DNA of 64,000 nt, taken from assembly GCF_016907365.1 (NCBI RefSeq), contig NZ_JAFBBV010000001.1, forward strand, positions 1,178,001-1,242,000. The letters run 5' to 3'. Below are positions 43,683 to 55,588 of the stretch, one piece after another (the stretch's first letter is position 1; every line of letters starts with the position of its first letter). Made by a program: the position numbers and the translations under genes. This DNA is from Oerskovia paurometabola (lineage in GTDB: Bacteria; Actinomycetota; Actinomycetes; Actinomycetales; Cellulomonadaceae). The notes under the pieces were generated by a model. It did no database searches. It saw only the letters and a program-made list of their open reading frames with translations, and had not been told where the DNA came from.

Positions 43683-44819
43683 GTGACGAGCGTGGCATTG
43701 GGCCAGCCGACCGTGGGTTCCGAGGAGCTCGAGGCGATTGCAGCAGTCTTCGAGTCGGGGTGGCTGTCCGGTGCCGGCCCCGCGTGCAAGGCCTTCGAGG
43801 AGCAGTTCGCCCGGACGGTGGGTACGGCCCACGCGCTCGCGACCTCCAACTGCGGCTCCGCGCTGCACCTCGGTCTCGAGGTCCTCGGCGCAGGGGCCGG
43901 CGACGAGGTGATCGTCGGCGACTACACCTTCCCGGCGACCGGCCACTCCGTGGTCTGGAGCGGGGCGACACCGGTGTTCGCGGACGTCCGGCCCGACATC
44001 TGGAGCGTCGATCCCGCCGCCGTCGAGGCCGCCATCACGCCGCGCACCGTCGGGATCCTCGCGGTCGACGTGTTCGGGCAGCCTGCGGACTACGACGAGC
44101 TCAGGGCGATCGCCGACCGGCACGGGCTGTGGCTCATGGAGGACGCAGCCTGCTCGGCCGGCGCCACCTACAAGGGCCGCCCGGCGGGGAGCCTGGCCGA
44201 TGTCGCGACGTTCAGCTTCCACGGACGCAAGGGCATCACCGCCGGCGAGGGCGGCGCGCTGGTGACGGACCGCGCCGACCTGGCGGACCACGCCCGCAAG
44301 CTCCACACCTACGGGATCGAACCGGCGATCTCGCGCGAGGGCTCGCGCGATCTCCCCGTTCCCTCGTTCGACGAGGCCGGGTACAACTACCGCCTCTCCG
44401 ACATCTCTGCGGCGATCATGCAGGTCCAGCTCAGGAGGCTGCCGGAGCTGCTCGCGTCCCGTCGCCGTGCCGCCTCCGCGTACGAGCACCTTCTGGGTGA
44501 CCTCGACCTCCTCACGCTGCCCGTCGCGCTGGACGACCGTGAGCACCCGTGGCAGTCGTACGTGCTGACGCTCGACCCCTCGGTCGACCGCGGGGTCGTG
44601 GCGACCGAGCTGCGCGCTCGAGGCGTCCAGTGCAACTTCGGGACGTACGCCTCGCACCTCCAGCCTGTCTATGCGAGCACCGCTTCCTGCCCCGTGTCGG
44701 CCGACCTCTTCGCTCGGCACCTGGCCATCCCGATGCACGCCAACCTCACCGAGGCCCAGATCGAGGTCGTCGCCTCCACGGTGCGCGACGTCGTGACCTC
44801 ACCCGACGCCCGCCGCTGA
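43683..44819 (+). CDS. NDP-sugar aminotransferase (DegT family)
   Basis: A 378-residue PLP enzyme from GTG 43683 with GGGAGGA upstream. The PLP lysine is in SFHGRKGITAGEGG; SNCGSALHLGLEVL forms the phosphate cup. FESGWLSGAGPACKAFEEQF is the usual N-terminal segment. It starts a three-gene unit with a 4-epimerase/dehydratase-type SDR and an acyltransferase, pointing to an acylated amino sugar. It differs clearly from the other three aminotransferases in this cluster, especially in the Lys motif. A TAGTCT -10-like box lies at 43653. Confidence 0.87.
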   Translation: MTSVALGQPTVGSEELEAIAAVFESGWLSGAGPACKAFEEQFARTVGTAHALATSNCGSALHLGLEVLGAGAGDEVIVGDYTFPATGHSVVWSGATPVFADVRPDIWSVDPAAVEAAITPRTVGILAVDVFGQPADYDELRAIADRHGLWLMEDAACSAGATYKGRPAGSLADVATFSFHGRKGITAGEGGALVTDRADLADHARKLHTYGIEPAISREGSRDLPVPSFDEAGYNYRLSDISAAIMQVQLRRLPELLASRRRAASAYEHLLGDLDLLTLPVALDDREHPWQSYVLTLDPSVDRGVVATELRARGVQCNFGTYASHLQPVYASTASCPVSADLFARHLAIPMHANLTEAQIEVVASTVRDVVTSPDARR

Positions 44820-44854
44820 TCGCGGCGGCAGAACCGAACCCCAGGAGCGATCAC

Positions 44855-45784
44855 GTGGCGGAAAAGACCGTCTTCTTCACCGGCGGCGCCGGCTTCATCG
44901 GCCTGCACGTCGTCCCCATGCTGCTCGAGCGCGGGTACAAGGTCAGGATCTTCGACAACATGTTCCGCGGCGACCGTGACGCGGTCGCGCGTCTCGCGCA
45001 GAGCGGTGCCGTCGAGCTCATCGACCAGGACGTGCGCTACGGCGGGGCCGTCCACCAGGCCATGAAGGGCTGCTCGCACGTCATCCACTTCGCGGCAGTC
45101 TCGATCAACAAGAGCCAGTCGGACCCGTACGAGTCCATGGACATCAACATGATCGGCGAGCACAACGTCTTCGCGGCCGCCGCGGACCACGGCGTCGAGC
45201 GCCTGGTGTTCGCGTCCAGCGCGTCCGTCTACGGCGACCCCGAGAAGCTGCCCATGCACGAGGACGACACGCTCTCGCCGCTCACGCCGTACTGCATCTC
45301 CAAGCGTGCCGGTGAGGACCTGCTCGGCTTCTACCAGCGCCGCGCGAACCTGTCGTGGATCGCGCTGCGGTTCTTCAACGTCTACGGACCGGGGCAGAAG
45401 ACGACGGCGTATTACACGTCCGTGATCAACCACTTCGTCAACCGCCTGCGCAACGGCGAGCCCCCCGTGATCGACGGCAAGGGTGAGCAGTCGATGGACT
45501 TCATCCACGTCCACGACATCGCGCGCTCGGTCGTCATGGCGCTCGAGGCCGAGCAGTCGAACGTGCCGATCAACGTCGGCACCGGGATCGACACCTCGAT
45601 CGCGGACCTCGCCAGGATCCTGATCGACGCCGTGGGCGCCGACGTCGAGCCCGTCTTCAACCCGCGCGACGTGCTGGTCAGCCGCCGTGCGGCGGACACG
45701 ACCCGGGCGAAGGAGATCCTCGGGTTCGAGCCGACGATCGCCGTGCGCGACGGCATGACGGACCTCATCCGAAACGGCGGCTGA
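44855..45784 (+). CDS. NAD-dependent NDP-sugar epimerase/dehydratase (extended SDR)
   Basis: A 309-residue enzyme; GTG 44855 has AGGAG seven bases upstream. The NAD motif is TGGAGFIG at 9-16. The catalytic SSASVYGD and Y146-x3-K150 (YCISK) are intact, and FFNVYGPGQ and DFIHVHDIA are typical. The family includes UDP-glucose 4-epimerase and WbpP-like enzymes; without a partner the exact reaction cannot be told. Stop and next start overlap (TGATG). Confidence 0.87.
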   Translation: MAEKTVFFTGGAGFIGLHVVPMLLERGYKVRIFDNMFRGDRDAVARLAQSGAVELIDQDVRYGGAVHQAMKGCSHVIHFAAVSINKSQSDPYESMDINMIGEHNVFAAAADHGVERLVFASSASVYGDPEKLPMHEDDTLSPLTPYCISKRAGEDLLGFYQRRANLSWIALRFFNVYGPGQKTTAYYTSVINHFVNRLRNGEPPVIDGKGEQSMDFIHVHDIARSVVMALEAEQSNVPINVGTGIDTSIADLARILIDAVGADVEPVFNPRDVLVSRRAADTTRAKEILGFEPTIAVRDGMTDLIRNGG

Positions 45785-46233
45785 TGCCTCCGCGCACCCC
45801 GGGCGCGCTGCCGCCCAACCCCTACCACGAGCAGGCGTGGATCGTCGGCGAGCCGGTGATCGGCGAGGGAACGTGGATCGGCGCCTTCACCGTCATCGAC
45901 GGCTCGGGTGGGCTGACCATCGGCGCGGGGTGCGACATCAGTGCGGGCGCTCAGATCTACACCCATTCGAGCGCGCGTCGTTGCGTCTCGGGACGACGGT
46001 GGAACGAGGTCGAGCGCGAGCCGGTCAGCATCGGTGACCGGGTCTTCATCGGTGCGGGGGCCATCGTGATGATGGGCGTGTCGATCGGGGACGAGGCCGT
46101 CGTGGGTGCGGGGGCGGTCGTCACCGCCGACGTCCCCCCGCGTACGGTCGTGGCCGGTGTCCCGGCACGGCCGGTGGCCCGGGTCGAGCTGCCCGACGAC
46201 GACGGCCGCCCCGTCTTCGCCCCCGTCGACTGA
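45784..46233 (+). CDS. Left-handed beta-helix acyltransferase
   Basis: A 149-residue enzyme of the hexapeptide-repeat type. Repeats run from GEPVIGEGTWIGAF through GAGCDISAGAQIYTHSS to DRVFIGAGAIVMMGVSIGDE. HSS in the loop and the single catalytic His fit small sugar O-acetyl/N-acetyltransferases of the WbbJ/maltose-type. It probably acetylates the sugar made by the two upstream genes. The last coding bases (46201-46233) form the 5' arm of a large terminator hairpin, so the protein end (DDGRPVFAPVD) is fixed partly by RNA structure. Confidence 0.83.
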   Translation: MPPRTPGALPPNPYHEQAWIVGEPVIGEGTWIGAFTVIDGSGGLTIGAGCDISAGAQIYTHSSARRCVSGRRWNEVEREPVSIGDRVFIGAGAIVMMGVSIGDEAVVGAGAVVTADVPPRTVVAGVPARPVARVELPDDDGRPVFAPVD

Positions 46234-46264: not shown

Positions 46265-47233
46265 TCAGACCGTGAGTGCGCTGAGGCCGGCGTCGAGCGC
46301 CTGCTGGACGATCCGGTGAGCCGGGACGATCGAACGCCGCTCGACGTCGGCGTCCACCCGCCCGTCGACGAGGTCGACGAACCGGTCGAGCTGGGTGGCC
46401 AGCGGCTCCCGCCCGACGATCTCCGGCACCTCCATCTCGGTCGCCTGCCGGAACCCACGCCCTGACTCGTCGGACTCGATCGTGGTGTGCCGGTAGGACG
46501 TCACGCCGCGGCGCAGCAGGTCCACCTCGATCATCCGGTCGAGCTCCTGGATCATCAGGGTGCGGATCTTGCGCTGCCCGATCCTGCTGGCCGAGGCCGA
46601 GGCGATGCCGCCACCGTCGAAACGCAGGCTGGTCTCCACGACGTCCTCGGCACCCGGCACCGACGACGGGTGGAAGTGCCCGACCTCGACCGAGAGCCCG
46701 AGGGGGTCGCTGCCGCCGAAGATCTGGGAGATCAGGTCGACGTCGTGGACGAGCAGGTCCCAGCCCACACCGGTACGGATCCGCGGCGCGTAGGGCGAGT
46801 GGCGCTCCGCCCGGACGAAGCGGGGCTCCTCCACCATCTGACGCGCGACCAGGACCGCGGGGTTGTAGCGCTCGAGGAAGCCGCACATGAGCGGGGTGCC
46901 TGCGGCCTCCGCCGCGTCGAGCACCTCGTACGTCTGGGCGAGAGACGGGCACACGGGCTTCTCGATCAGGAGCGGCAGGCCCGCGCCGATCACGTCCAGC
47001 GCGAGCCGGTAGTGATGCTCGGTGGCGGCGGCGACGACCACGGCGTCGACGTCGCCGATCCCGTCGAGGTCGGCCGCCCAGCGGGAGCCGAGCTGGTCGG
47101 CCACCGGACGTCCGACGGACTCGGCGGGGTCGACGACGACCGCGAGCTCGGTGCGGGACGACTCGGCGATCACCCGGGCGTGGTTCCTGCCCATCGATCC
47201 CGCGCCGACGAGCGCGATCCGGAGGGCGCTCAC
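46265..47233 (-). CDS. Gfo/Idh/MocA-family NDP-sugar dehydrogenase (WbpB/GnnA-like)
   Basis: A 322-residue NAD(P)-dependent enzyme from GTG 47233, overlapping the aminotransferase stop. The dinucleotide motif is GAGSMGRNH; LLIEKPVC contains the catalytic Lys, and WDLLVHDVDL holds the conserved Asp/His pair. In this family WbpB and GnnA oxidise C3 of a UDP-GlcNAc-type sugar so that a DegT enzyme can add an amino group. The partner aminotransferase is the adjacent gene and the LpxA-like acyltransferase is nearby, which supports a 3-amino sugar product. WbpA is not seen. Confidence 0.83.
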   Translation of the reverse strand: MSALRIALVGAGSMGRNHARVIAESSRTELAVVVDPAESVGRPVADQLGSRWAADLDGIGDVDAVVVAAATEHHYRLALDVIGAGLPLLIEKPVCPSLAQTYEVLDAAEAAGTPLMCGFLERYNPAVLVARQMVEEPRFVRAERHSPYAPRIRTGVGWDLLVHDVDLISQIFGGSDPLGLSVEVGHFHPSSVPGAEDVVETSLRFDGGGIASASASRIGQRKIRTLMIQELDRMIEVDLLRRGVTSYRHTTIESDESGRGFRQATEMEVPEIVGREPLATQLDRFVDLVDGRVDADVERRSIVPAHRIVQQALDAGLSALTV

Positions 47234-48327
47234 GAGAGGACCTTGCGTACTGCGGAGGCGACGGTCTCGACGTCGTCCTCGCTCAGGCGCCCGTGGACGG
47301 GCAGCGACAGACAGCGGCTGGAGACGTCGTCGGCGACCGGGGTCTCGGAGATCACGACCCCAGGGTGCGAGCGGTAGCAGTCGTAGTCGTAGACCGGGCG
47401 GGGGTAGTAGACGCCGCTCGTGACGCCCTCCGCGCGGAGCGCCTCCATGATGCGGTCGCGCTCGTGCGCCACCTCGCTGGGCAGGAGGACGGTGAACTGG
47501 TGCCAGACGTGCTCCCGGCCAGGAAGCTGCTGGGGCAGGACGAGGCCCTCGACGCCGTCGAGGAGCTCGACGAGCCGGGCGGCGTTGGCGCGCCGGCGGG
47601 TCAGCTGCTCGGCGTAGCGGTCGAACTGGGGCAGCGCGACGGCTGCCTGGAGGTCCGTGAGCCGGTAGTTGTGGCCGGCGACCTCGTACTGGTAGCGCTG
47701 GCGCATGCCCTGGTTGCGCAGCACGCGCAGGCGGTCGGCGATCGCCGCGTCGTTCGTCGTGATCATGCCGCCCTCACCGCTCGTGAGGTTCTTCGTGGCG
47801 TAGAGGGAGAAGCAGCCGATCCCGAACGACCCGGCCCCGGCGCCCTCGAACGTGGCGCCGTGCGACTGCGCCGAGTCCTCGACGAGAGCGAGGCCCTGGC
47901 GGCCCGCCAGGTCGGTGAACGCCGTCATGTCTGCGGTCTGGCCGTACAGGTGCACCGGGAGGAGAACCTTCGTCCGGTCCGTGACCTGGGCCTCCGCGGA
48001 CGCTGCGGTCAGGTTGAAGTCGGTCGCGCTGATGTCGCCGAACCGTGCCGTCGCGCCGGCCTCGAGGATCGCGTTGAGGGTGGCGACGAACGTGAACGGG
48101 CTCGTGACGACCTCGTCGCCGGGCTCGAGGTCCAGCACCTGGAGAGCAGCGACGAGGGCGGTCGTCCCGTTGTTCACGGCCACAGCGTGCTCGACGCCCA
48201 CCAGCTCGGCGAACCGTGACTCGAGCTCGGCGACCACCGGTCCTTGGGCGATGATCCCGGACCGGATCACCCCCAGGACCTTCTCTTCAACCTCGGGGCC
48301 GAGCTCGACGACGGAAATCGGGATCAC
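47230..48327 (-). CDS. NDP-3-keto-sugar aminotransferase (WbpE/GnnB-like, DegT family)
   Basis: A 365-residue PLP enzyme. The lysine is in SLYATKNLTSGEGG, the signature of WbpE/GnnB-like enzymes. IPISVVELGPEVEEKVLGV, NNGTTALVAALQVL and YYPRPVYDYDCYR complete the fold. It overlaps the MocA-type dehydrogenase (4 bases) and would add the C3 amino group to its product with glutamate as donor. A short hairpin (48350-48366) lies just upstream of the start, in the presumed leader. Confidence 0.87.
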   Translation of the reverse strand: MIPISVVELGPEVEEKVLGVIRSGIIAQGPVVAELESRFAELVGVEHAVAVNNGTTALVAALQVLDLEPGDEVVTSPFTFVATLNAILEAGATARFGDISATDFNLTAASAEAQVTDRTKVLLPVHLYGQTADMTAFTDLAGRQGLALVEDSAQSHGATFEGAGAGSFGIGCFSLYATKNLTSGEGGMITTNDAAIADRLRVLRNQGMRQRYQYEVAGHNYRLTDLQAAVALPQFDRYAEQLTRRRANAARLVELLDGVEGLVLPQQLPGREHVWHQFTVLLPSEVAHERDRIMEALRAEGVTSGVYYPRPVYDYDCYRSHPGVVISETPVADDVSSRCLSLPVHGRLSEDDVETVASAVRKVLS

Positions 48328-48536
48328 GTGGGCACGTCCTCACCTCTCGTTCCCGCGAAGCGGGAAGACCTCCTGGACGGCGCCGGAGCACGCGAACGAA
48401 GGCACTCGGACTACGGGTAGCATCGGTGCGGAACATCCACCGACGCAGCATCATCCTAGCGACCGTCGGCGCGCCCATCGTGCCCCCTTCTGTGGTGGTA
48501 CGCGGATGGTCAACACTCGGGACGTAGGGGAAGTGC

Positions 48537-49274
48537 GTGGTAGCAGAGAAGATCCATCGGACGGCGTCGGTCGGTCCAGGGGTCGAGCTCGGGCAGGACG
48601 TCGTCGTCGGTCCGTACGCGGTGCTGACGGGGCCCATGACGGTCGGCGACCGGACGTGGATCGGTGCGGGAGCGGCCCTCGGCGGCCCGCCCGAGACCAA
48701 GTCGGCCCGGATGAACTCGGCATGGGTCGGTGACCTCGACCACGCCGGAGTCGTCGTCGGCGCGGACGTGGTGGTCCGCGAGAACGCCGTGGTGCACCAG
48801 GGGACCTGGCGACCGACCGTGGTCGGGGACGGGGTGTGGCTGATGAACCGCAGCTACGTCGCCCACGACGTCGAGGTCGGCGAGTCGGCCGTGCTGTCGG
48901 CGGGCGTCAGCGTCGGGGGGCACGTCACGATCGGTGCTCGTGCCAACATCGGGCTCAACGCGAGCGTCCACCAGCGACGGGTCGTCGGTCCCGGCGCGAT
49001 GGTCGGGATGGGCACGGCGCTCGCGCGTGACGTCCCGCCGTTCGCGCTCGTCTACGGTTCCCCGGCCCGGCTCGAGGGGGTCAACGCGCACCTCCTGCGC
49101 CTGTGCGGATACTCGGACGAGGTCGTCGACGCCCTGCGACGCGCCTACGAGGCGTCGGACGACCTGACGGCCGTGACCGTCACCGACGAGCTCGCGCCCG
49201 TGACGGCCGAGCTCGACGCGTGGAACCTCCTCGTCGCGCCGCGTCCCGTGCGCTCCGGCTCGGCAGCCCGATGA
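48537..49274 (+). CDS. LpxA-like acyltransferase
   Basis: A 245-residue enzyme from GTG 48537, with AGGGGAA upstream. It resembles LpxA (UDP-GlcNAc acyltransferase) along its length: VRENAVVHQGT, SYVAHDVEVG (catalytic His), NASVHQRRVVGPGAMVG and DVPPFALVYGSPARLEGVN, with a helical C terminus. The organism is a Gram-positive type that should make no lipid A, so the acceptor is likely the amino sugar made by the MocA/DegT pair on the opposite strand. In Acidithiobacillus and Leptospira, LpxA acylates a GnnA/GnnB product. Chain length of the acyl group is unknown. Confidence 0.85.
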   Translation: MVAEKIHRTASVGPGVELGQDVVVGPYAVLTGPMTVGDRTWIGAGAALGGPPETKSARMNSAWVGDLDHAGVVVGADVVVRENAVVHQGTWRPTVVGDGVWLMNRSYVAHDVEVGESAVLSAGVSVGGHVTIGARANIGLNASVHQRRVVGPGAMVGMGTALARDVPPFALVYGSPARLEGVNAHLLRLCGYSDEVVDALRRAYEASDDLTAVTVTDELAPVTAELDAWNLLVAPRPVRSGSAAR

Positions 49275-50293
49275 CCGACCAGCAGACCGATCCGCTCAAC
49301 GAGGACACCGGCAGCGACGTGGTCGCACCCCCGACCACGAAGTCGTCGCGTGGTGCGCTCCTGGCCGTCGCCCGCGTGGTCCTGCTGGTCGTGGTCATCG
49401 CCGCGGCCGGGTTCACGCTCTGGCGCTACTGGGACGACGTGTCCGTCACGGTCCAGGCGATGTCGTGGACGAGCCTCGTCCCGGCGACCCTGCTCGTGGC
49501 AGTGGGGATCGCGTGCGGGACCCTGAGCTGGCAGGTCCTGGTCGACGACCTGGGCAAGCCGATCGGGGCCCGTCGCGGCTCGCAGATCTTCCTCGTCGGG
49601 CAGCTCGGGAAGTACCTGCCCGGGTCGGTCTGGGCGTACGTGCTCCAGCTCGAGCTCGGGCGTCGAGCCGGGCTCGCGCGCGCACGTGTCTTCGCGGCCA
49701 CGGTCTTCTCGCTCGCGGTGGCCGTCGTGGCCGCGCTCGTCGCGGGCGCCCTCGCCCTCCCGGAGCTCATGCAGGAGGATCCTTCCCTGGGCTGGATGCG
49801 CTGGCTCTACCTGCTGCTGCCCGTCGGTCTCGCCTGCCTCCACCCCAAGATCCTCACCGCGCTCGCGACGTTCGGCTTCCGGGTGCTGCGACGGCCTCGC
49901 CCGCCGCACCCGGTCCGGCTGCGGACGGTCCTCCACTCGCTGGCCTGGGCGCTCGGCTCCTACACGTGCTACGGCGTGCACCTGTGGCTCCTCGCGGGAA
50001 CCCCCGACGGTGCGGGCCTGCGCCCGCTCGCCCTGTGCATCGGCGCCATGGGCATCGCGATGGTCTCCGGCCTGTTCGCCTTCGTGCTGCCGTCGGGCGC
50101 GGGCATCCGCGAGCTCGTGATCGTCACGGCACTGGCCCCGATGGTGGGGACCGGCCCCGCCGTGGCCGCCGCGGCCGTGTCGCGGGTCATCTTCACACTT
50201 GCCGACCTCGCGATGGCGGGCGGTGCGGCCGGTCTTGCGGTGATCGCGCGGCGCCGCGAGGGGCGGTACATCGGCGACGACGGACTCACCTGA
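49271..50293 (+). CDS. Flippase-like integral membrane protein (LPG synthase TM/AglD-like)
   Basis: A 340-residue protein with about eight membrane helices, ATG 49271 overlapping the LpxA-like stop. FLVGQLGKYLPGSVWAYVLQ is the hallmark of the flippase-like family (PF03706-type) and PSGAGIRELVIVTAL is a second conserved region. Relatives act in polyprenyl-sugar or lipid transfer. It would help carry or attach the acylated sugar across the membrane. The next gene follows after 29 bases with a perfect ribosome site. Confidence 0.83.
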   Translation: MTDQQTDPLNEDTGSDVVAPPTTKSSRGALLAVARVVLLVVVIAAAGFTLWRYWDDVSVTVQAMSWTSLVPATLLVAVGIACGTLSWQVLVDDLGKPIGARRGSQIFLVGQLGKYLPGSVWAYVLQLELGRRAGLARARVFAATVFSLAVAVVAALVAGALALPELMQEDPSLGWMRWLYLLLPVGLACLHPKILTALATFGFRVLRRPRPPHPVRLRTVLHSLAWALGSYTCYGVHLWLLAGTPDGAGLRPLALCIGAMGIAMVSGLFAFVLPSGAGIRELVIVTALAPMVGTGPAVAAAAVSRVIFTLADLAMAGGAAGLAVIARRREGRYIGDDGLT

Positions 50294-50322
50294 TCCGCCG
50301 TCGCCCCGACAAGGAGGTTCAG

Positions 50323-51516
50323 ATGGCACGCGTGGTCGTGGTGGGTGCAGGGATCGTCGGACTGGCGGTCGCTCGGCAGCTCGCCGCACGGGGGGACGAC
50401 GTCGTCGTCCTCGACAAGGAGGACGCTCTCGCCAGCCACCAGACGGGACGTAACTCCGGAGTGATCCACTCCGGCCTCTACTACACGCCTGGTAGTGCGA
50501 AGGCCCGGATGTGCGCTGCGGGTGCACGCTCGATGACCGAGTTCGCCCGGGAGCGAGGGGTCCCCTTCGACATCTGCGGCAAGCTCGTCGTCGCGGTCGA
50601 CGAGAGCGAGCTCCCCAGCCTTCGGCGGATCGAGGAGCGGGCGCGCGCGAACGGTGTACCGGTCACGATGCTGACTCCCGAGCAGGCCCGCGAGCACGAG
50701 CCGTACGTCCGGTGCGTGGCCGCGCTGCGTGTCGAGTCGACCGGGATCATCAACTACCTCGGCGTGTGCCGGGAGCTGGCGGCCGACGTCGCCGGTGCCG
50801 CAGGCGGAGAGGTGCGGCTCGGGGAGAGCTTCGTCTCCGCAGAGACCACGCCGCACGGGGTGCGCGTGACGACCGATCGCCAGGTGCTCGAGGCCGACGC
50901 CCTGGTCACGTGCGCCGGCCTCCAGAGCGACCGGGTGGCCGCCGCCTCGGGCGTCGACCCGGAGGTGCGGATCGTCCCCTTCCGGGGCGAGTACTTCGAG
51001 CTGACCCCCGAGCGCGAGCACCTCGTCCGCGGGCTCATCTACCCGGTGCCCGACCCGCGCTTCCCGTTCCTCGGTGTGCACCTGACGCGGTCGGTCTCGG
51101 GCGGCGTGCACGTCGGCCCGAACGCGGTCCTCGCCCTCGCCCGTGAGGGGTACCGGTGGCGCGACGTCGTCGTGGGCGACGTGGTCGACTCTCTGACGTG
51201 GCCGGGGCTGTGGCACCTGGGTGCACGCAACGTCGTCCCCGGTGCCCAGGAGGTGCTCCGGTCCTGGTCGAGGCGGCGATTTGCGGCCAGCCTGTCCCGG
51301 CTCGTCCCGGGCATCGAGGCCAAGGATCTCACCCGCGCGCCTGCGGGTGTCCGCGCGCAGGCGATGCGTCGCGACGGTAGTCTCGTGGACGACTTCCTGA
51401 TCCAGTCCGACGCGCGCCAGGTACACGTCCTGAACGCCCCGTCCCCTGCTGCGACCTGCGCTTTTGAGATCGCCGAGCACATCGTGGGGCGCGTGGACGA
51501 GCACTTGATCCACTGA
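50323..51516 (+). CDS. lhgO: L-2-hydroxyglutarate oxidase (LhgO)
   Basis: A 397-residue FAD enzyme from ATG 50323, preceded by AAGGAGGT, a perfect anti-16S match. The FAD motif is VVVGAGIVGLAVARQL; RNSGVIHSGLYYTPGSAKA is the LhgO signature. The enzyme oxidises L-2-hydroxyglutarate to 2-oxoglutarate. In this setting it could recycle the 2-hydroxyglutarate that WbpB-type dehydrogenases form when they regenerate NAD+ with 2-oxoglutarate. A general DAO-type oxidase with another hydroxy acid is possible but less likely. Confidence 0.9.
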   Translation: MARVVVVGAGIVGLAVARQLAARGDDVVVLDKEDALASHQTGRNSGVIHSGLYYTPGSAKARMCAAGARSMTEFARERGVPFDICGKLVVAVDESELPSLRRIEERARANGVPVTMLTPEQAREHEPYVRCVAALRVESTGIINYLGVCRELAADVAGAAGGEVRLGESFVSAETTPHGVRVTTDRQVLEADALVTCAGLQSDRVAAASGVDPEVRIVPFRGEYFELTPEREHLVRGLIYPVPDPRFPFLGVHLTRSVSGGVHVGPNAVLALAREGYRWRDVVVGDVVDSLTWPGLWHLGARNVVPGAQEVLRSWSRRRFAASLSRLVPGIEAKDLTRAPAGVRAQAMRRDGSLVDDFLIQSDARQVHVLNAPSPAATCAFEIAEHIVGRVDEHLIH

Positions 51517-51616: not shown

Positions 51617-53656
51617 ATGAAGTACTCACGAGCAGGAGTCTCGGGGATCGCCGTGCTGGCGCTCCTCGTCGGGGGCGGCACAGCGTCTGCGAGTACCGTC
51701 GCGCAGCTGTCGTCGACGCTCGGCGCCGAGAACCAGGTCACCGACGGGATCACCTCGTCGGAGCCGTCGGTGACCGAGGTCCCGCTCGACGTGGTCGCGG
51801 TGCAGGCAGGGGGCGCTGCCGCTCCCGACGCCGAGGCCGACGCCGGGTCCCGAGCACAGGAGGGGCCCGCCGAGGGCGTGGAGTCCGTCCCCGCGGACGG
51901 AGGCCAGGTCACCGTGGAGGCCCAGGTCGCGGACGACAGGATCGAGAGTCCGGTCCTGGAGTCCGACGGCTTCCAGACCCTCGGGGTCACGTGGCCAGAC
52001 GGTGCCGCCCCTGAGGGGATCGCGGCGCAGGCTCGGACCCGGTCGGTCGACGGGGAGTGGACCGCCTGGGTGGACCTCGAGATCTCCGACGACGCTCCCG
52101 ACCAGGGGACGGCCGAGGCCGAACGCGAGCTGCGTGGCGGGACGGCACCGCTGTGGGTCGGTGAGGCCGACGCCGTCCAGCTGGCGTTCTCGGCCGAGGC
52201 GGAGGGGGTCCCTGACGTGACGCTCGCTCTCGTCGACTCCCCGGCCGACGAGAGCGCATCGGCGACCGTCCAGAGCAGCAGCACCGTTCCGAGCGGCAGC
52301 AGCACGACTCCGAGCGGCGTCGCACAGTTCTCCACGGCGCAGTTCTCCGCCGCACAGTTCTCCGACGCGGCCCTCACCGGAGCCGTCGAGGGCTCGGTCC
52401 GGGCGGCCGCCGTCCCCACCGTCATCACGCGTGCGCAGTGGGGGGCTGCGGCGCCGATCTGCACGCCTGACACCGCCGCGGCCCTGGTCGGTGCGGTCGT
52501 GCACCACACGGCTGGACCGAACGGGTACTCGACGGTCGCGCAGGCGATGCAGCAGATTCGCAACGACCAGAAGTACCACCAGGCGACGCGAGGCTGGTGC
52601 GACCTGGGGTACAACTTCATCGTCGACAAGTGGGGGAACATCTACGAGGGCCGTGGGGGAAGCCTCACCTCTGCCGTGATCGGCGTGCACGCCGGCGGTT
52701 TCAACACCGGCACGGTCGGGATCTCGATGCTCGGCAACTTCCACGGCCCCGCCGGCGGGATGGCCACGACCCCCGCCATGATCGACGCGGTCGGTCGGAT
52801 CGCCGGTGCCCGGCTCGGTGCGTACAACATCAACCCGCAGGGGTGGTTCACCTACCGGACCCTCGGCGGGGAGAACTCGAAGTACCCTGCCGGGTCCAAC
52901 GTTTCCCTGCCACGGATCTTCGGTCACCGGGACACGGCGTACACGGCCTGCCCCGGCGACTACGGATACGCGCAGCTGGACAACATCCGCGCGATCGCGC
53001 TCGCCCACTCGGACCCGCAGGCGTATGCCGCTGCGCAGTCGGTGGTGAAGGCGTTGTACACGGATCTGTTGGGTCGTGGTCCGGATCCGACGGGGTTGGA
53101 GGGTTGGTCTGCGGCGTTGGTGTCGGGTGCGGGGCAGCCTGAGCTGGTGGCGTCGTTGACGCGTAGTCAGGAGTATGTGGCGTTGCGTGTGTCGAACGCG
53201 TACATGGAGGCGTTGGGTCGTGGTCCGGATCCGGTGGGTGCGCAGGACTGGGCGCGGGAGATTCATGCGGGGCGGGCGACGGTTGATGATGTGAAGCGTC
53301 GGTTCTACGACTCGTCGGAGTTCTTCGCGCGGGCTGGTGGGACGCCGCAGGGTTATGTGCAGGTGTTGTATCAGACGATGTTGGGTCGGGGGGCTGCGCC
53401 GTCGGAGATCGATGCGTGGGTGAAGGTCATGGAGGTCAGGGGTCGTTCGCGGATGGTGGACGAGCTGTGGTTCTCGATGGAGGCTGCGCGGATGCGTGCG
53501 GGTGGTTACTACTCGACGTTCTTGCAGCGTGGTCCGGATCCGACGGGGTTGACGGCGTGGGCGCAGGTGTTGTTGTCGCACGGTGAGGGGGCGGTGCGTG
53601 TGGGTATCGCGGGCAGCTCCGAGTACCGGGCGTTGGCACAGACGCGTTTCCCCTGA
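51617..53656 (+). CDS. Secreted PGRP/N-acetylmuramoyl-L-alanine amidase with DUF4214 module
   Basis: A 679-residue exported protein. Signal peptide about 1-26 (AVLALLVGGGTASAS). Residues 100-200 hold the amidase-associated region (TLGVTWPDGAAPEG, GEWTAWVDLE). A low-complexity linker with repeated AQFS (about 235-250) follows. The PGRP/amidase_2 domain spans 270-455: VVHHTAG and HRDTAYTACPG contain the zinc ligands (His, His, Cys) and the Tyr. The enzyme cleaves the bond between MurNAc and L-Ala in peptidoglycan. Residues 471-679 carry four DUF4214-like units (LYTDLLGRGPDPTG and copies). The module is encoded by a 641-bp sequence repeated exactly in the next gene. Confidence 0.9.
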   Translation: MKYSRAGVSGIAVLALLVGGGTASASTVAQLSSTLGAENQVTDGITSSEPSVTEVPLDVVAVQAGGAAAPDAEADAGSRAQEGPAEGVESVPADGGQVTVEAQVADDRIESPVLESDGFQTLGVTWPDGAAPEGIAAQARTRSVDGEWTAWVDLEISDDAPDQGTAEAERELRGGTAPLWVGEADAVQLAFSAEAEGVPDVTLALVDSPADESASATVQSSSTVPSGSSTTPSGVAQFSTAQFSAAQFSDAALTGAVEGSVRAAAVPTVITRAQWGAAAPICTPDTAAALVGAVVHHTAGPNGYSTVAQAMQQIRNDQKYHQATRGWCDLGYNFIVDKWGNIYEGRGGSLTSAVIGVHAGGFNTGTVGISMLGNFHGPAGGMATTPAMIDAVGRIAGARLGAYNINPQGWFTYRTLGGENSKYPAGSNVSLPRIFGHRDTAYTACPGDYGYAQLDNIRAIALAHSDPQAYAAAQSVVKALYTDLLGRGPDPTGLEGWSAALVSGAGQPELVASLTRSQEYVALRVSNAYMEALGRGPDPVGAQDWAREIHAGRATVDDVKRRFYDSSEFFARAGGTPQGYVQVLYQTMLGRGAAPSEIDAWVKVMEVRGRSRMVDELWFSMEAARMRAGGYYSTFLQRGPDPTGLTAWAQVLLSHGEGAVRVGIAGSSEYRALAQTRFP

Positions 53657-53667
53657 GCACCCACCAC
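53027..53667 (+). repeat. 641-bp perfect direct repeat, copy 1
   Basis: Identical to 54948-55588 at every base I compared, from GCCGCTGCGCAGTC to GAGCACCCACCAC. It encodes the DUF4214 module, the stop codon and 11 bases beyond. Its codons (TTG, GAT, GGT, GTG) differ from the surrounding coding sequence. The pair is 1921 bases apart. Confidence 0.95.
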
Positions 53668-53681
53668 TCTTGGAGCAGTTC

Positions 53682-55577
53682 ATGACCCGCACGTCATCTC
53701 GGCCCTTCGCCGTCGCGCTCGCAGCTGCGCTGGCCTTGGCACTCACCGGGGTCGGACTGACCCCGCCGGCCCCCGCGGCAGCGACCGTCGCGACCTCCGA
53801 CTTCGGGGAGGGGACGGTGTCGTTCGTCGGTCACGGCTACGGTCACGGTCGGGGGATGGGCCAGTACGGCTCGCTCGGCTACGCCGTCGACCACGGGTGG
53901 GACTACCAGCAGATCCTGGACCACTACTACGGCGGCACCGCCACGACGGGCGGCGCACCGGCCACCATCTCGGTGGAGCTCCTCGCGCACACCTCTTCGC
54001 TCACGGCGATGGGGCGTGGCCTCGTCGTCAACGGCTTCCCCCAGGCCGAGACCGGGTCGGCGGGCAGTGCCGTCCGTGTGCTGCCGAAGTCGAACGGCGC
54101 GTTCGACGTCTACGTCGGGCCGTCGTGCTCCGGCCCCTGGAGCGCCGCCGGGTCGTCTGCGACGGTCGAGATCTCCACGAGCTCGCCGAGCGACGTCTCG
54201 CGATATGTCCGCACCTGCGAGTCGGGTGGCGAACGGTCGTACCGCGGCACGCTCAGCGTTCGCCGCAACCAACGGACCGCCGGGCTCATGGTGGTCAACA
54301 ACGTGGCGACCGAGGACTACCTGCGCGGAGTGGTGCCGCGTGAGTCGCCCGACGGTTGGGGGGCTCGTCCGAACGGGTTGGAGTCCCTGAAGGCCCAGGC
54401 CGTGGCGGCACGTTCGTACGCGCTCTCGCAGCAGAGCGCTCGTCCTTCCGGCGCGCAGACGTGCGACACGACGACCTGCCAGGTGTATCTCGGAGCGGCC
54501 TACCAGCCCAACGGTGGAGCCCGCACCAGCCTCGACGGCCCCAACGCCGACCGGGCGATCGCAGCGACCGCGGGCCAGGTCCGGTACCGTCCGGGCTCGG
54601 TCCCGGTGCAGATCGTCCGGACCGAGTTCAGCTCGTCGACCGGCGGGTGGACGGCTGGCGGGACCTTCCCCGCGGTCCAGGACGTCGGTGACGCGACCGC
54701 GTCGAACCCGAACAGCACGTGGTCCGTCTCGTTCACGCTCTCGGACGTCGCCAAGGCCATGGGGACGGGCCCCATCACCAGGTTCGACGTGACCCAGCGC
54801 AACGGGCTCGGTGCAGAGGGCGGGCGCGTCCTCCAGGTGGCAGTGACCGGGGGCGGGACGACGCGCACCTTCACGGGCAACCAGGTCCGTACCCTGCTCG
54901 GGCTCAAGAGCGACTGGTTCACCCCGACGCTGACCCAGGGCGGGGAGGCCGCTGCGCAGTCGGTGGTGAAGGCGTTGTACACGGATCTGTTGGGTCGTGG
55001 TCCGGATCCGACGGGGTTGGAGGGTTGGTCTGCGGCGTTGGTGTCGGGTGCGGGGCAGCCTGAGCTGGTGGCGTCGTTGACGCGTAGTCAGGAGTATGTG
55101 GCGTTGCGTGTGTCGAACGCGTACATGGAGGCGTTGGGTCGTGGTCCGGATCCGGTGGGTGCGCAGGACTGGGCGCGGGAGATTCATGCGGGGCGGGCGA
55201 CGGTTGATGATGTGAAGCGTCGGTTCTACGACTCGTCGGAGTTCTTCGCGCGGGCTGGTGGGACGCCGCAGGGTTATGTGCAGGTGTTGTATCAGACGAT
55301 GTTGGGTCGGGGGGCTGCGCCGTCGGAGATCGATGCGTGGGTGAAGGTCATGGAGGTCAGGGGTCGTTCGCGGATGGTGGACGAGCTGTGGTTCTCGATG
55401 GAGGCTGCGCGGATGCGTGCGGGTGGTTACTACTCGACGTTCTTGCAGCGTGGTCCGGATCCGACGGGGTTGACGGCGTGGGCGCAGGTGTTGTTGTCGC
55501 ACGGTGAGGGGGCGGTGCGTGTGGGTATCGCGGGCAGCTCCGAGTACCGGGCGTTGGCACAGACGCGTTTCCCCTGA
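53682..55577 (+). CDS. SpoIID/LytB-domain exported protein with DUF4214 module
   Basis: A 631-residue protein from ATG 53682 with GGAG upstream. Signal peptide about 1-33. GHGYGHGRGMGQYGSLGYA (about 49-67) and DYLRGVVPRESPDGWG plus SLKAQAVAARSYAL (about 210-245) are SpoIID/LytB hallmarks. SpoIID is a lytic transglycosylase whose catalytic Glu lies in the VVPRESP-like segment. Residues 423-631 are the DUF4214 module, identical to that of the amidase. Both are likely exported wall hydrolases; the module may bind the cluster's glycan. No sporulation genes are nearby. Confidence 0.9.
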   Translation: MTRTSSRPFAVALAAALALALTGVGLTPPAPAAATVATSDFGEGTVSFVGHGYGHGRGMGQYGSLGYAVDHGWDYQQILDHYYGGTATTGGAPATISVELLAHTSSLTAMGRGLVVNGFPQAETGSAGSAVRVLPKSNGAFDVYVGPSCSGPWSAAGSSATVEISTSSPSDVSRYVRTCESGGERSYRGTLSVRRNQRTAGLMVVNNVATEDYLRGVVPRESPDGWGARPNGLESLKAQAVAARSYALSQQSARPSGAQTCDTTTCQVYLGAAYQPNGGARTSLDGPNADRAIAATAGQVRYRPGSVPVQIVRTEFSSSTGGWTAGGTFPAVQDVGDATASNPNSTWSVSFTLSDVAKAMGTGPITRFDVTQRNGLGAEGGRVLQVAVTGGGTTRTFTGNQVRTLLGLKSDWFTPTLTQGGEAAAQSVVKALYTDLLGRGPDPTGLEGWSAALVSGAGQPELVASLTRSQEYVALRVSNAYMEALGRGPDPVGAQDWAREIHAGRATVDDVKRRFYDSSEFFARAGGTPQGYVQVLYQTMLGRGAAPSEIDAWVKVMEVRGRSRMVDELWFSMEAARMRAGGYYSTFLQRGPDPTGLTAWAQVLLSHGEGAVRVGIAGSSEYRALAQTRFP

Positions 55578-55588
55578 GCACCCACCAC
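54948..55588 (+). repeat. 641-bp perfect direct repeat, copy 2
   Basis: Second copy of the sequence at 53027-53667, forming the 3' end of the SpoIID-domain gene. The copies diverge immediately outside the borders (TGCC/GGCC at the left; TCTTGG/CCGTCG at the right). Confidence 0.95.

Follow-up and report, generated by a model that had tools for sequence, protein, structure and literature searches.

In the 64,000-nucleotide stretch of Oerskovia paurometabola DNA analyzed here (the window), lhgO, the gene of a putative L-2-hydroxyglutarate oxidase, is located in an operon-like cluster with genes of a GnnA-like dehydrogenase, a GnnB-type aminotransferase, an LpxA-like acyltransferase and a flippase-like protein, and the association of LhgO with such loci is recurrent. 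The cluster probably makes an unusual cell-surface sugar. Many relatives with the cluster keep lhgO inside it, which suggests that the sugar synthesis yields L-2-hydroxyglutarate. We tentatively propose, at a little under an even chance, that LhgO serves the locus by reoxidizing the L-2-hydroxyglutarate formed as GnnA regenerates NAD+.

Layout of the locus

The features of the locus are as follows (window positions).

46265..47233, minus strand: GnnA-like Gfo/Idh/MocA dehydrogenase, putative UDP-GlcNAc 3-dehydrogenase (322 aa)
47230..48327, minus strand: GnnB/WbpE-like DegT/DnrJ/EryC1/StrS aminotransferase (365 aa; PF01041, 380 bits)
48328..48536, no strand: divergent intergenic region between two presumed transcription units
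48537..49274, plus strand: LpxA-like left-handed beta-helix acyltransferase (245 aa; LpxA models and structures)
49271..50293, plus strand: flippase-like membrane protein, LPG_synthase_TM (PF03706, 54 bits)
50323..51516, plus strand: LhgO, L-2-hydroxyglutarate oxidase/dehydrogenase, FAD, DAO family (397 aa; NF008726)
43683..46233, plus strand: second cassette in the wider locus (three genes)
43683..44819, plus strand: second-cassette DegT aminotransferase
44870..45784, plus strand: second-cassette SDR epimerase/dehydratase
45784..46233, plus strand: second-cassette hexapeptide acetyltransferase

All five genes from the dehydrogenase to lhgO (46265–51516) were open and full length in the ORF and profile check, and the grouping proposed in the first-pass annotation was recovered intact. 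The dehydrogenase and aminotransferase genes adjoin and overlap by 4 bases on the minus strand. The ATG of the flippase-like gene overlaps the stop codon of the LpxA-like gene, and lhgO starts 29 bases past the flippase stop, with aaggagg preceding its ATG. No sigma-70-like site was found in 48328..48536 by a simple scan; the promoter/terminator scan returned zero promoter-like sites and a single terminator-like site, which was intragenic, and the Rfam scan yielded three tRNAs and nothing else.

Enzyme assignments

The best sequence match of the dehydrogenase among solved structures was GnnA (7bvj, 26% identity; 7bvj and 7bvk are GnnA structures by PDB title). GnnA was also among its top fold matches, and WlbA ranked lower both by sequence and by fold. 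The earlier label of a WbpB-type (WlbA family) enzyme was therefore dropped, as the protein resembles GnnA more than WbpB. Since it scored 123.8 bits against NF040723 (an equivalog of archaeal enzymes, cut-off 450), it was filed as GnnA-like, outside that equivalog. Its second beta strand is followed by Asp35, and it has an EKP motif at 91–93; both would fit an NAD+-dependent sugar dehydrogenase. When GnnA residues were compared between loci with and without LhgO, seven positions differed, none recognized as catalytic; L063 and L064 were kept out of the main GnnA group in this comparison. The GnnA alignment (A2) comprised the window and 39 of 43 GnnA sequences picked for diversity; Arg144, His145 and Arg151 are invariant in it.

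The aminotransferase is a member of the DegT/DnrJ/EryC1/StrS family, and its PDB matches included perosamine synthetase (3bn1, E 2e-66) and WbpE (3nyu, E 3e-54), in agreement with its earlier description as WbpE/GnnB-like. The acyltransferase matched two LpxA models (E 7e-46 and 7e-42) with 156.5 and 143.5 bits, and was filed as LpxA-like because both equivalog scores were under the cut-offs (226 and 231 bits, respectively); LpxA structures matched it from E 5e-31.

LhgO scored 531.8 bits against the NCBIfam equivalog NF008726 (cut-off 299), covering model positions 2–388 of 389, and matched PDB 8w75 (listed as FI05204p, presumably the Drosophila L-2-hydroxyglutarate dehydrogenase) across nearly its full length (E 3e-94). 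Oxidation of L-2-hydroxyglutarate is its putative function. Across 101 LhgO sequences, 93 conserved columns were listed, one of them a gap column, and the window protein keeps 90 of the 92 residue positions; it deviates at 144 (Asn, where 99 of the 101 aligned sequences have Asp) and at 381 (Phe). Some oxidases in the wider DAO family act on other substrates, and the change of Asp144 could likewise point to a different substrate, for example a hydroxy acid bound to a glycan or precursor. We consider this very improbable: the equivalog score is far above the cut-off, and by the criterion applied, a single column (position 46) distinguishes LhgO sequences linked to the locus from the others, and that only partially.

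Proposed pathway and known systems

From family knowledge, we infer C3 oxidation, transamination and acylation by the locus enzymes. The product would be a UDP-activated 3-amino GlcNAc-type sugar, probably 3-N-acylated. GnnA would oxidize C3 of the sugar with bound NAD+, the aminotransferase would bring an amine onto C3 while converting glutamate to 2-oxoglutarate, the LpxA-like enzyme would acylate the amine, and glycosyltransferases and the flippase would use the finished sugar. We further infer that 2-oxoglutarate is the oxidant of GnnA, that the product is the L isomer and that LhgO acts on it: the NADH of GnnA would be discharged onto 2-oxoglutarate, and LhgO would convert the resulting L-2-hydroxyglutarate back to 2-oxoglutarate, passing electrons to the respiratory chain. 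The net reaction would be sugar-OH + glutamate + quinone -> sugar-NH2 + 2-oxoglutarate + quinol. We know of no demonstration of GnnA using 2-oxoglutarate.

In the GnnA/GnnB/LpxA pathway of Acidithiobacillus ferrooxidans and Leptospira, a UDP-GlcNAc 3-dehydrogenase, a 3-aminotransferase and an LpxA-like acyltransferase are neighbors as in the window, but the window host is an actinobacterium, presumably without lipid A, and its locus adds the flippase-like protein and LhgO. The WbpB/WbpE/WbpD (WlbA/WlbC/WlbB) system of Pseudomonas aeruginosa and Bordetella pertussis recycles NAD+ with 2-oxoglutarate. It shares C3 oxidation and transamination with the window locus and, under our proposal, also the reoxidation of NADH by glutamate-derived 2-oxoglutarate; its substrate is a uronic acid, and the window dehydrogenase is closer to GnnA. 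To our knowledge, LhgO is not a part of the described WbpB/WbpE/WbpD pathway. In Pseudomonas stutzeri, SerA is paired with a D-2-hydroxyglutarate dehydrogenase, so that 2-oxoglutarate reduction drives a biosynthetic dehydrogenase and a dedicated enzyme restores 2-oxoglutarate from 2-hydroxyglutarate; the D isomer and serine synthesis are involved there, the L isomer and sugar synthesis in the scheme proposed here. In glutarate breakdown by Escherichia coli and Pseudomonas (the LhgO/CsiD pathway), CsiD is the source of L-2-hydroxyglutarate and LhgO feeds its electrons into the respiratory chain, as would be the case here, but no CsiD match was found in the window genome. Neither was a second full-length LhgO (four partial matches, about 44 bits or less).

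L-2-hydroxyglutarate is mostly viewed as an error product of metabolism; in bacteria, it is otherwise known from the degradation of glutarate, where it is an intermediate. If the proposal is true, it gains a regular biosynthetic origin, with its oxidase paired with a sugar 3-dehydrogenase in a conserved locus; 2-oxoglutarate-driven NAD+ recycling would extend from WbpB to GnnA-type enzymes, and LhgO would supply the missing step that returns 2-hydroxyglutarate.

Linkage of LhgO and GnnA

Linkage was surveyed in the best 80 of 395 GnnA-type loci, which are the nearest relatives of the window GnnA. The first-pass annotation was to fall if lhgO occurred near wbpB/gnnA homologues no more often than by chance; LhgO was found ≤10 kb from GnnA in 49 of the 80 loci, and 19 further ones have it on the GnnA contig at up to about 21 kb. 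The control genes MurB, SpoIID and amidase were near GnnA in 0, 2 and 5 of the same 80, respectively. The linkage was found in six named families and in several gene orders. The GnnB query matched 78/80 of these loci, although it also picks up other DegT enzymes. LhgO is recurrent in GnnA-type loci of Actinomycetota, so its place among glycan genes is no peculiarity of the window genome, and chance or single-genome grouping was ruled out by the counts searched from the GnnA side.

Searched from the LhgO side, the LhgO loci of 16 relatives had no GnnA, GnnB, LpxA-like or flippase matches, which looked like a refutation until the GnnA-side search reversed the picture. Among 248 genomes of the host's order, LhgO was present in 75 and GnnA, LpxA-like protein and LhgO together in four, in all of which the three lie within about 8 kb. 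A class sample of 374 genomes had LhgO in 166 and GnnA in four, three of the latter with LhgO; linkage in this sample was seen in the window genome and G477 only. No MocA-type dehydrogenase match was found in 30 LhgO stretches unlinked to GnnA, which were selected for absence of GnnA linkage and not for absence of other MocA genes. In the plasmid collection, 29 records were GnnA-like (all but one haloarchaeal by name) and 207 had LhgO (the 40 listed being mainly Sinorhizobium, Rhizobium and Pseudomonas by name), with no record common to both among the matches listed.

The tie of LhgO to the glycan locus held in the survey, but strict pairing with GnnA did not, as some GnnA genomes are free of LhgO and the neighbor of LhgO is often another aminotransferase. 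At least seven GnnA-positive genomes had no LhgO match. LhgO was absent from the genome for six of the best 80 of 395 loci; five of these six have MAG titles, so the genomes may be incomplete, and the Schumannella one (L075) has not. GnnA and LpxA-like matches were also found without LhgO in G265 (rated 100% complete) and G245 (67% complete), and in L081, L105 and G424 LhgO is elsewhere in the genome, away from GnnA.

Gene orders, LhgO lineages and alternative explanations

Pseudonocardiaceae account for 45 of the best 80 of 395 loci, and serS is present in the locus or LhgO stretch in 26 of these 45. In two GnnA-free genomes (L176 and L178), LhgO is about 1 kb from serS and groups with Pseudonocardiaceae on the LhgO tree; the linkage in this family may therefore be an inherited position. 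LhgO is moreover common without GnnA, as in the class sample, and is single-copy in 32 of 34 LhgO-positive genomes (40 searched). These observations would fit housekeeping repair, in which LhgO clears a side product of lactate/malate dehydrogenase and its position was inherited in a variable glycan island spread by descent and transfer. We consider this somewhat unlikely, as the linkage survives several gene orders and families, the control genes are rarely near GnnA, Nocardioides LhgO forms a separate lineage that is also at the locus, and there is a second LhgO on a separate contig in G309 and two LhgO matches in G477. On the LhgO tree (a quick tree, its 30 unlinked rows being a non-random pick from high-scoring LhgO matches), the linkage label requires 8 changes, at least four of them forced by well supported branches. 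The tree was built without L097, L101, L115, L125, L131 and L132, in which the edge of the locus truncates LhgO, and without L173 (genome shared with L071).

In the 80 GnnA loci, the SDR query of the second cassette matched in 57 and the hexapeptide query in 56, some of the matches being distant (24–45% identity). The nearest module neighbor of LhgO is mostly the second aminotransferase, in divergent orientation (22 cases <600 bases), and in the four cases with LhgO and GnnA on different contigs but LhgO still in a locus of this kind, LhgO adjoins this cassette. LhgO might thus serve the locus through the step of the second DegT aminotransferase and SDR enzyme, with L-2-hydroxyglutarate or a similar hydroxy acid arising there instead of at GnnA. 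This seems quite improbable to us: in two Nocardioides loci (L080 and L082; gaps of 57 and 27 bases) lhgO is the gene immediately before gnnA, on the same strand, and we know of no SDR or DegT enzymes reducing 2-oxoglutarate. LhgO is also ≤10 kb away in 15 of 27 GnnA loci without the cassette (no match ≥60% identity within 10 kb), which is weak evidence because 14 of the 15 are Pseudonocardiaceae.

Returning to GnnA as the source, we regard as possible, short of probable, a widespread actinobacterial electron-disposal loop: GnnA would pass its hydride to the 2-oxoglutarate released by the aminotransferase, and a co-located, repeatedly recruited LhgO would pass it on to the respiratory chain, making aminosugar synthesis a physiological source of L-2-hydroxyglutarate that is pulled by respiration. 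LhgO follows the flippase in tandem, as in the window, in L059, L067, L072 and L084. In G131 and G234, the frame before lhgO, a glycosyltransferase by look only, shares 4 bases with it. G287 carries a second LhgO, which is oriented divergently from another MocA dehydrogenase inside an SDR-DegT cluster (L156).

Gene arrangement in the window

The host genome was a single, high-GC contig of 4.33 Mb, actinobacterial judging from its relatives. The five genes grouped in the first-pass annotation, including LhgO (L-2-hydroxyglutarate oxidase/dehydrogenase), were all intact, confirming that observation, and were directly preceded by a second cassette:

43683-46233, plus strand, second cassette: aminotransferase, SDR enzyme, hexapeptide acetyltransferase
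46265..47233, minus strand, GnnA-like dehydrogenase
47230..48327, minus strand, GnnB-like aminotransferase
48537..49274, plus strand, LpxA-like gene
49271..50293, plus strand, flippase
50323..51516, plus strand, LhgO

The gnnA/gnnB-like pair (4-base overlap) was separated by a 209-base gap from the divergent LpxA-like/flippase/LhgO unit, in which the flippase start overlapped the LpxA-like stop and LhgO began 29 bases past the flippase, preceded by a strong ribosome-binding site. Residue 144 of LhgO (50752-50754) was Asn; Asp was present in 99 of 101 aligned LhgO proteins, and the only Asn-type exception outside the window was locus L149.

The adjacent genes for an amidase (51617-53656) and a SpoIID-domain protein (53679-55577) had DNA-identical DUF4214 tails, forming a 641-base exact direct repeat (53027-53667 and 54948-55588) that by inspection looks like a recent duplication or gene conversion.

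LhgO in the vicinity of GnnA

One draw of 248 genomes of the order was searched three times at set E-value limits, yielding matches to GnnA in 7, LpxA-like in 6, and LhgO in 75. All three were present in four genomes (that of the window, G251, G131, and G234), each time within ~8 kb. LhgO was not matched in G265 (rated complete) or G245 (67% complete), and G178 had a distant GnnA match and nothing else of the three.

A GnnA alignment was scanned against genomes of 84,980 species; 395 relatives were confirmed and the best 80 loci kept. LhgO lay within 10 kb of GnnA in 49 of these 80. For the remaining 31, the genomes were searched for LhgO (40 genomes in all), and the LhgO regions were fetched and overlapped with the loci: LhgO was on the same contig in 19 (up to ~21 kb away), on another contig beside a cassette resembling the second one of the window in 4, and elsewhere in the genome in 2. 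The genome searches detected no LhgO for 6 of the 80 loci, five of them from MAGs. The co-occurrence anticipated in the first-pass annotation was found, with LhgO on the contig of GnnA in 68 of 80 loci; a query for MurB, a gene expected in all such genomes, matched within none of the 80 loci. The 68 are not independent events, because descent and transfer relate the loci to one another and the survey took the 80 closest among 395.

Independence of the association

Same-contig LhgO occurred in six named families; G251 was placed in family f13 and G131 and G234 in f20, families that may coincide with some of the six.

Same-contig LhgO by family (loci with it / all GnnA loci)
Pseudonocardiaceae, 43/45
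Micromonosporaceae, 8/9
Microbacteriaceae, 5/10
Nocardioidaceae, 5/5
Cellulomonadaceae, 4/4
Promicromonosporaceae, 1/1
Geodermatophilaceae, 0/1
Propionibacteriaceae, 0/1
Without family placement, 2/4

Gene orders varied: flippase then LhgO (window type), LhgO then gnnA (L080, L082), LhgO and flippase convergent (L069, L071, L073), LhgO and the second aminotransferase back to back on opposite strands (22 closely spaced cases), and LhgO following a frame that by inspection resembles a glycosyltransferase (G131, G234). A quick tree built from 101 LhgO sequences required 8 changes of the linkage label, of which well supported branches forced at least 4; Nocardioides LhgO was set apart from the others. 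Cryobacterium ruanii (G287, locus L111) had two LhgO copies (L155, L156), each in a sugar cluster; the second (L156, 8094-10678) was divergent from a MocA dehydrogenase only ~30% identical to GnnA, beside SDR and DegT genes. Among 30 LhgO stretches outside GnnA loci (mostly ~9 kb per side; L037, 6.9 kb total), MocA-type matches were found in none and DegT in one; since these were picked as not GnnA-linked, the absence of other MocA genes is the sole informative point. We would defend two or three independent LhgO-GnnA associations.

Much of the linkage in Pseudonocardiaceae, which supplied more than half of the 80 loci, may instead be inherited position, because 26 of the 45 cases had serS in either the locus or the stretch around LhgO, and serS lay ~1 kb from LhgO in two GnnA-free genomes (L176, L178) whose LhgO clustered with that of this family in the tree. 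In these two, LhgO was also near other genes that the Pseudonocardiaceae loci contain, and its serS-side position is an old chromosomal neighbourhood. In a class draw of 374 genomes, GnnA was rare (4) and LhgO common (166), and LhgO therefore has work beyond this locus. The four GnnA genomes included three with LhgO, linked in two (window, G477) and on a separate contig in G424. Some GnnA loci manage without LhgO, as in the six whose genomes gave no match and in G265.

Proposed role of LhgO

WbpB-type enzymes recover NAD+ with transamination-derived 2-oxoglutarate, leaving 2-hydroxyglutarate. From family knowledge, GnnA would oxidise C3, and transamination would then free 2-oxoglutarate beside the NADH-holding enzyme; like WbpB-type enzymes, GnnA may spend its NADH on 2-oxoglutarate, and may yield the L isomer of 2-hydroxyglutarate. 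If so, LhgO would be the enzyme needed to reclaim the carbon and send electrons to quinone. CsiD had no match in the genome of the window, and CsiD glutarate hydroxylation is therefore not the source of 2-hydroxyglutarate. The recycling proposed in the first-pass annotation is partly supported: its genomic side is strengthened and its chemical side unproven.

LhgO was also found in a cluster common to two Streptomyces plasmids (L187, NZ_CP109336.1; L188, NZ_CP108363.1), with an aminotransferase, an ATP-grasp enzyme, an Ldh-family oxidoreductase, and Nramp and MFS transporters. Because Ldh-family enzymes reduce 2-oxo acids, the oxidoreductase and LhgO may form another recycling pair.
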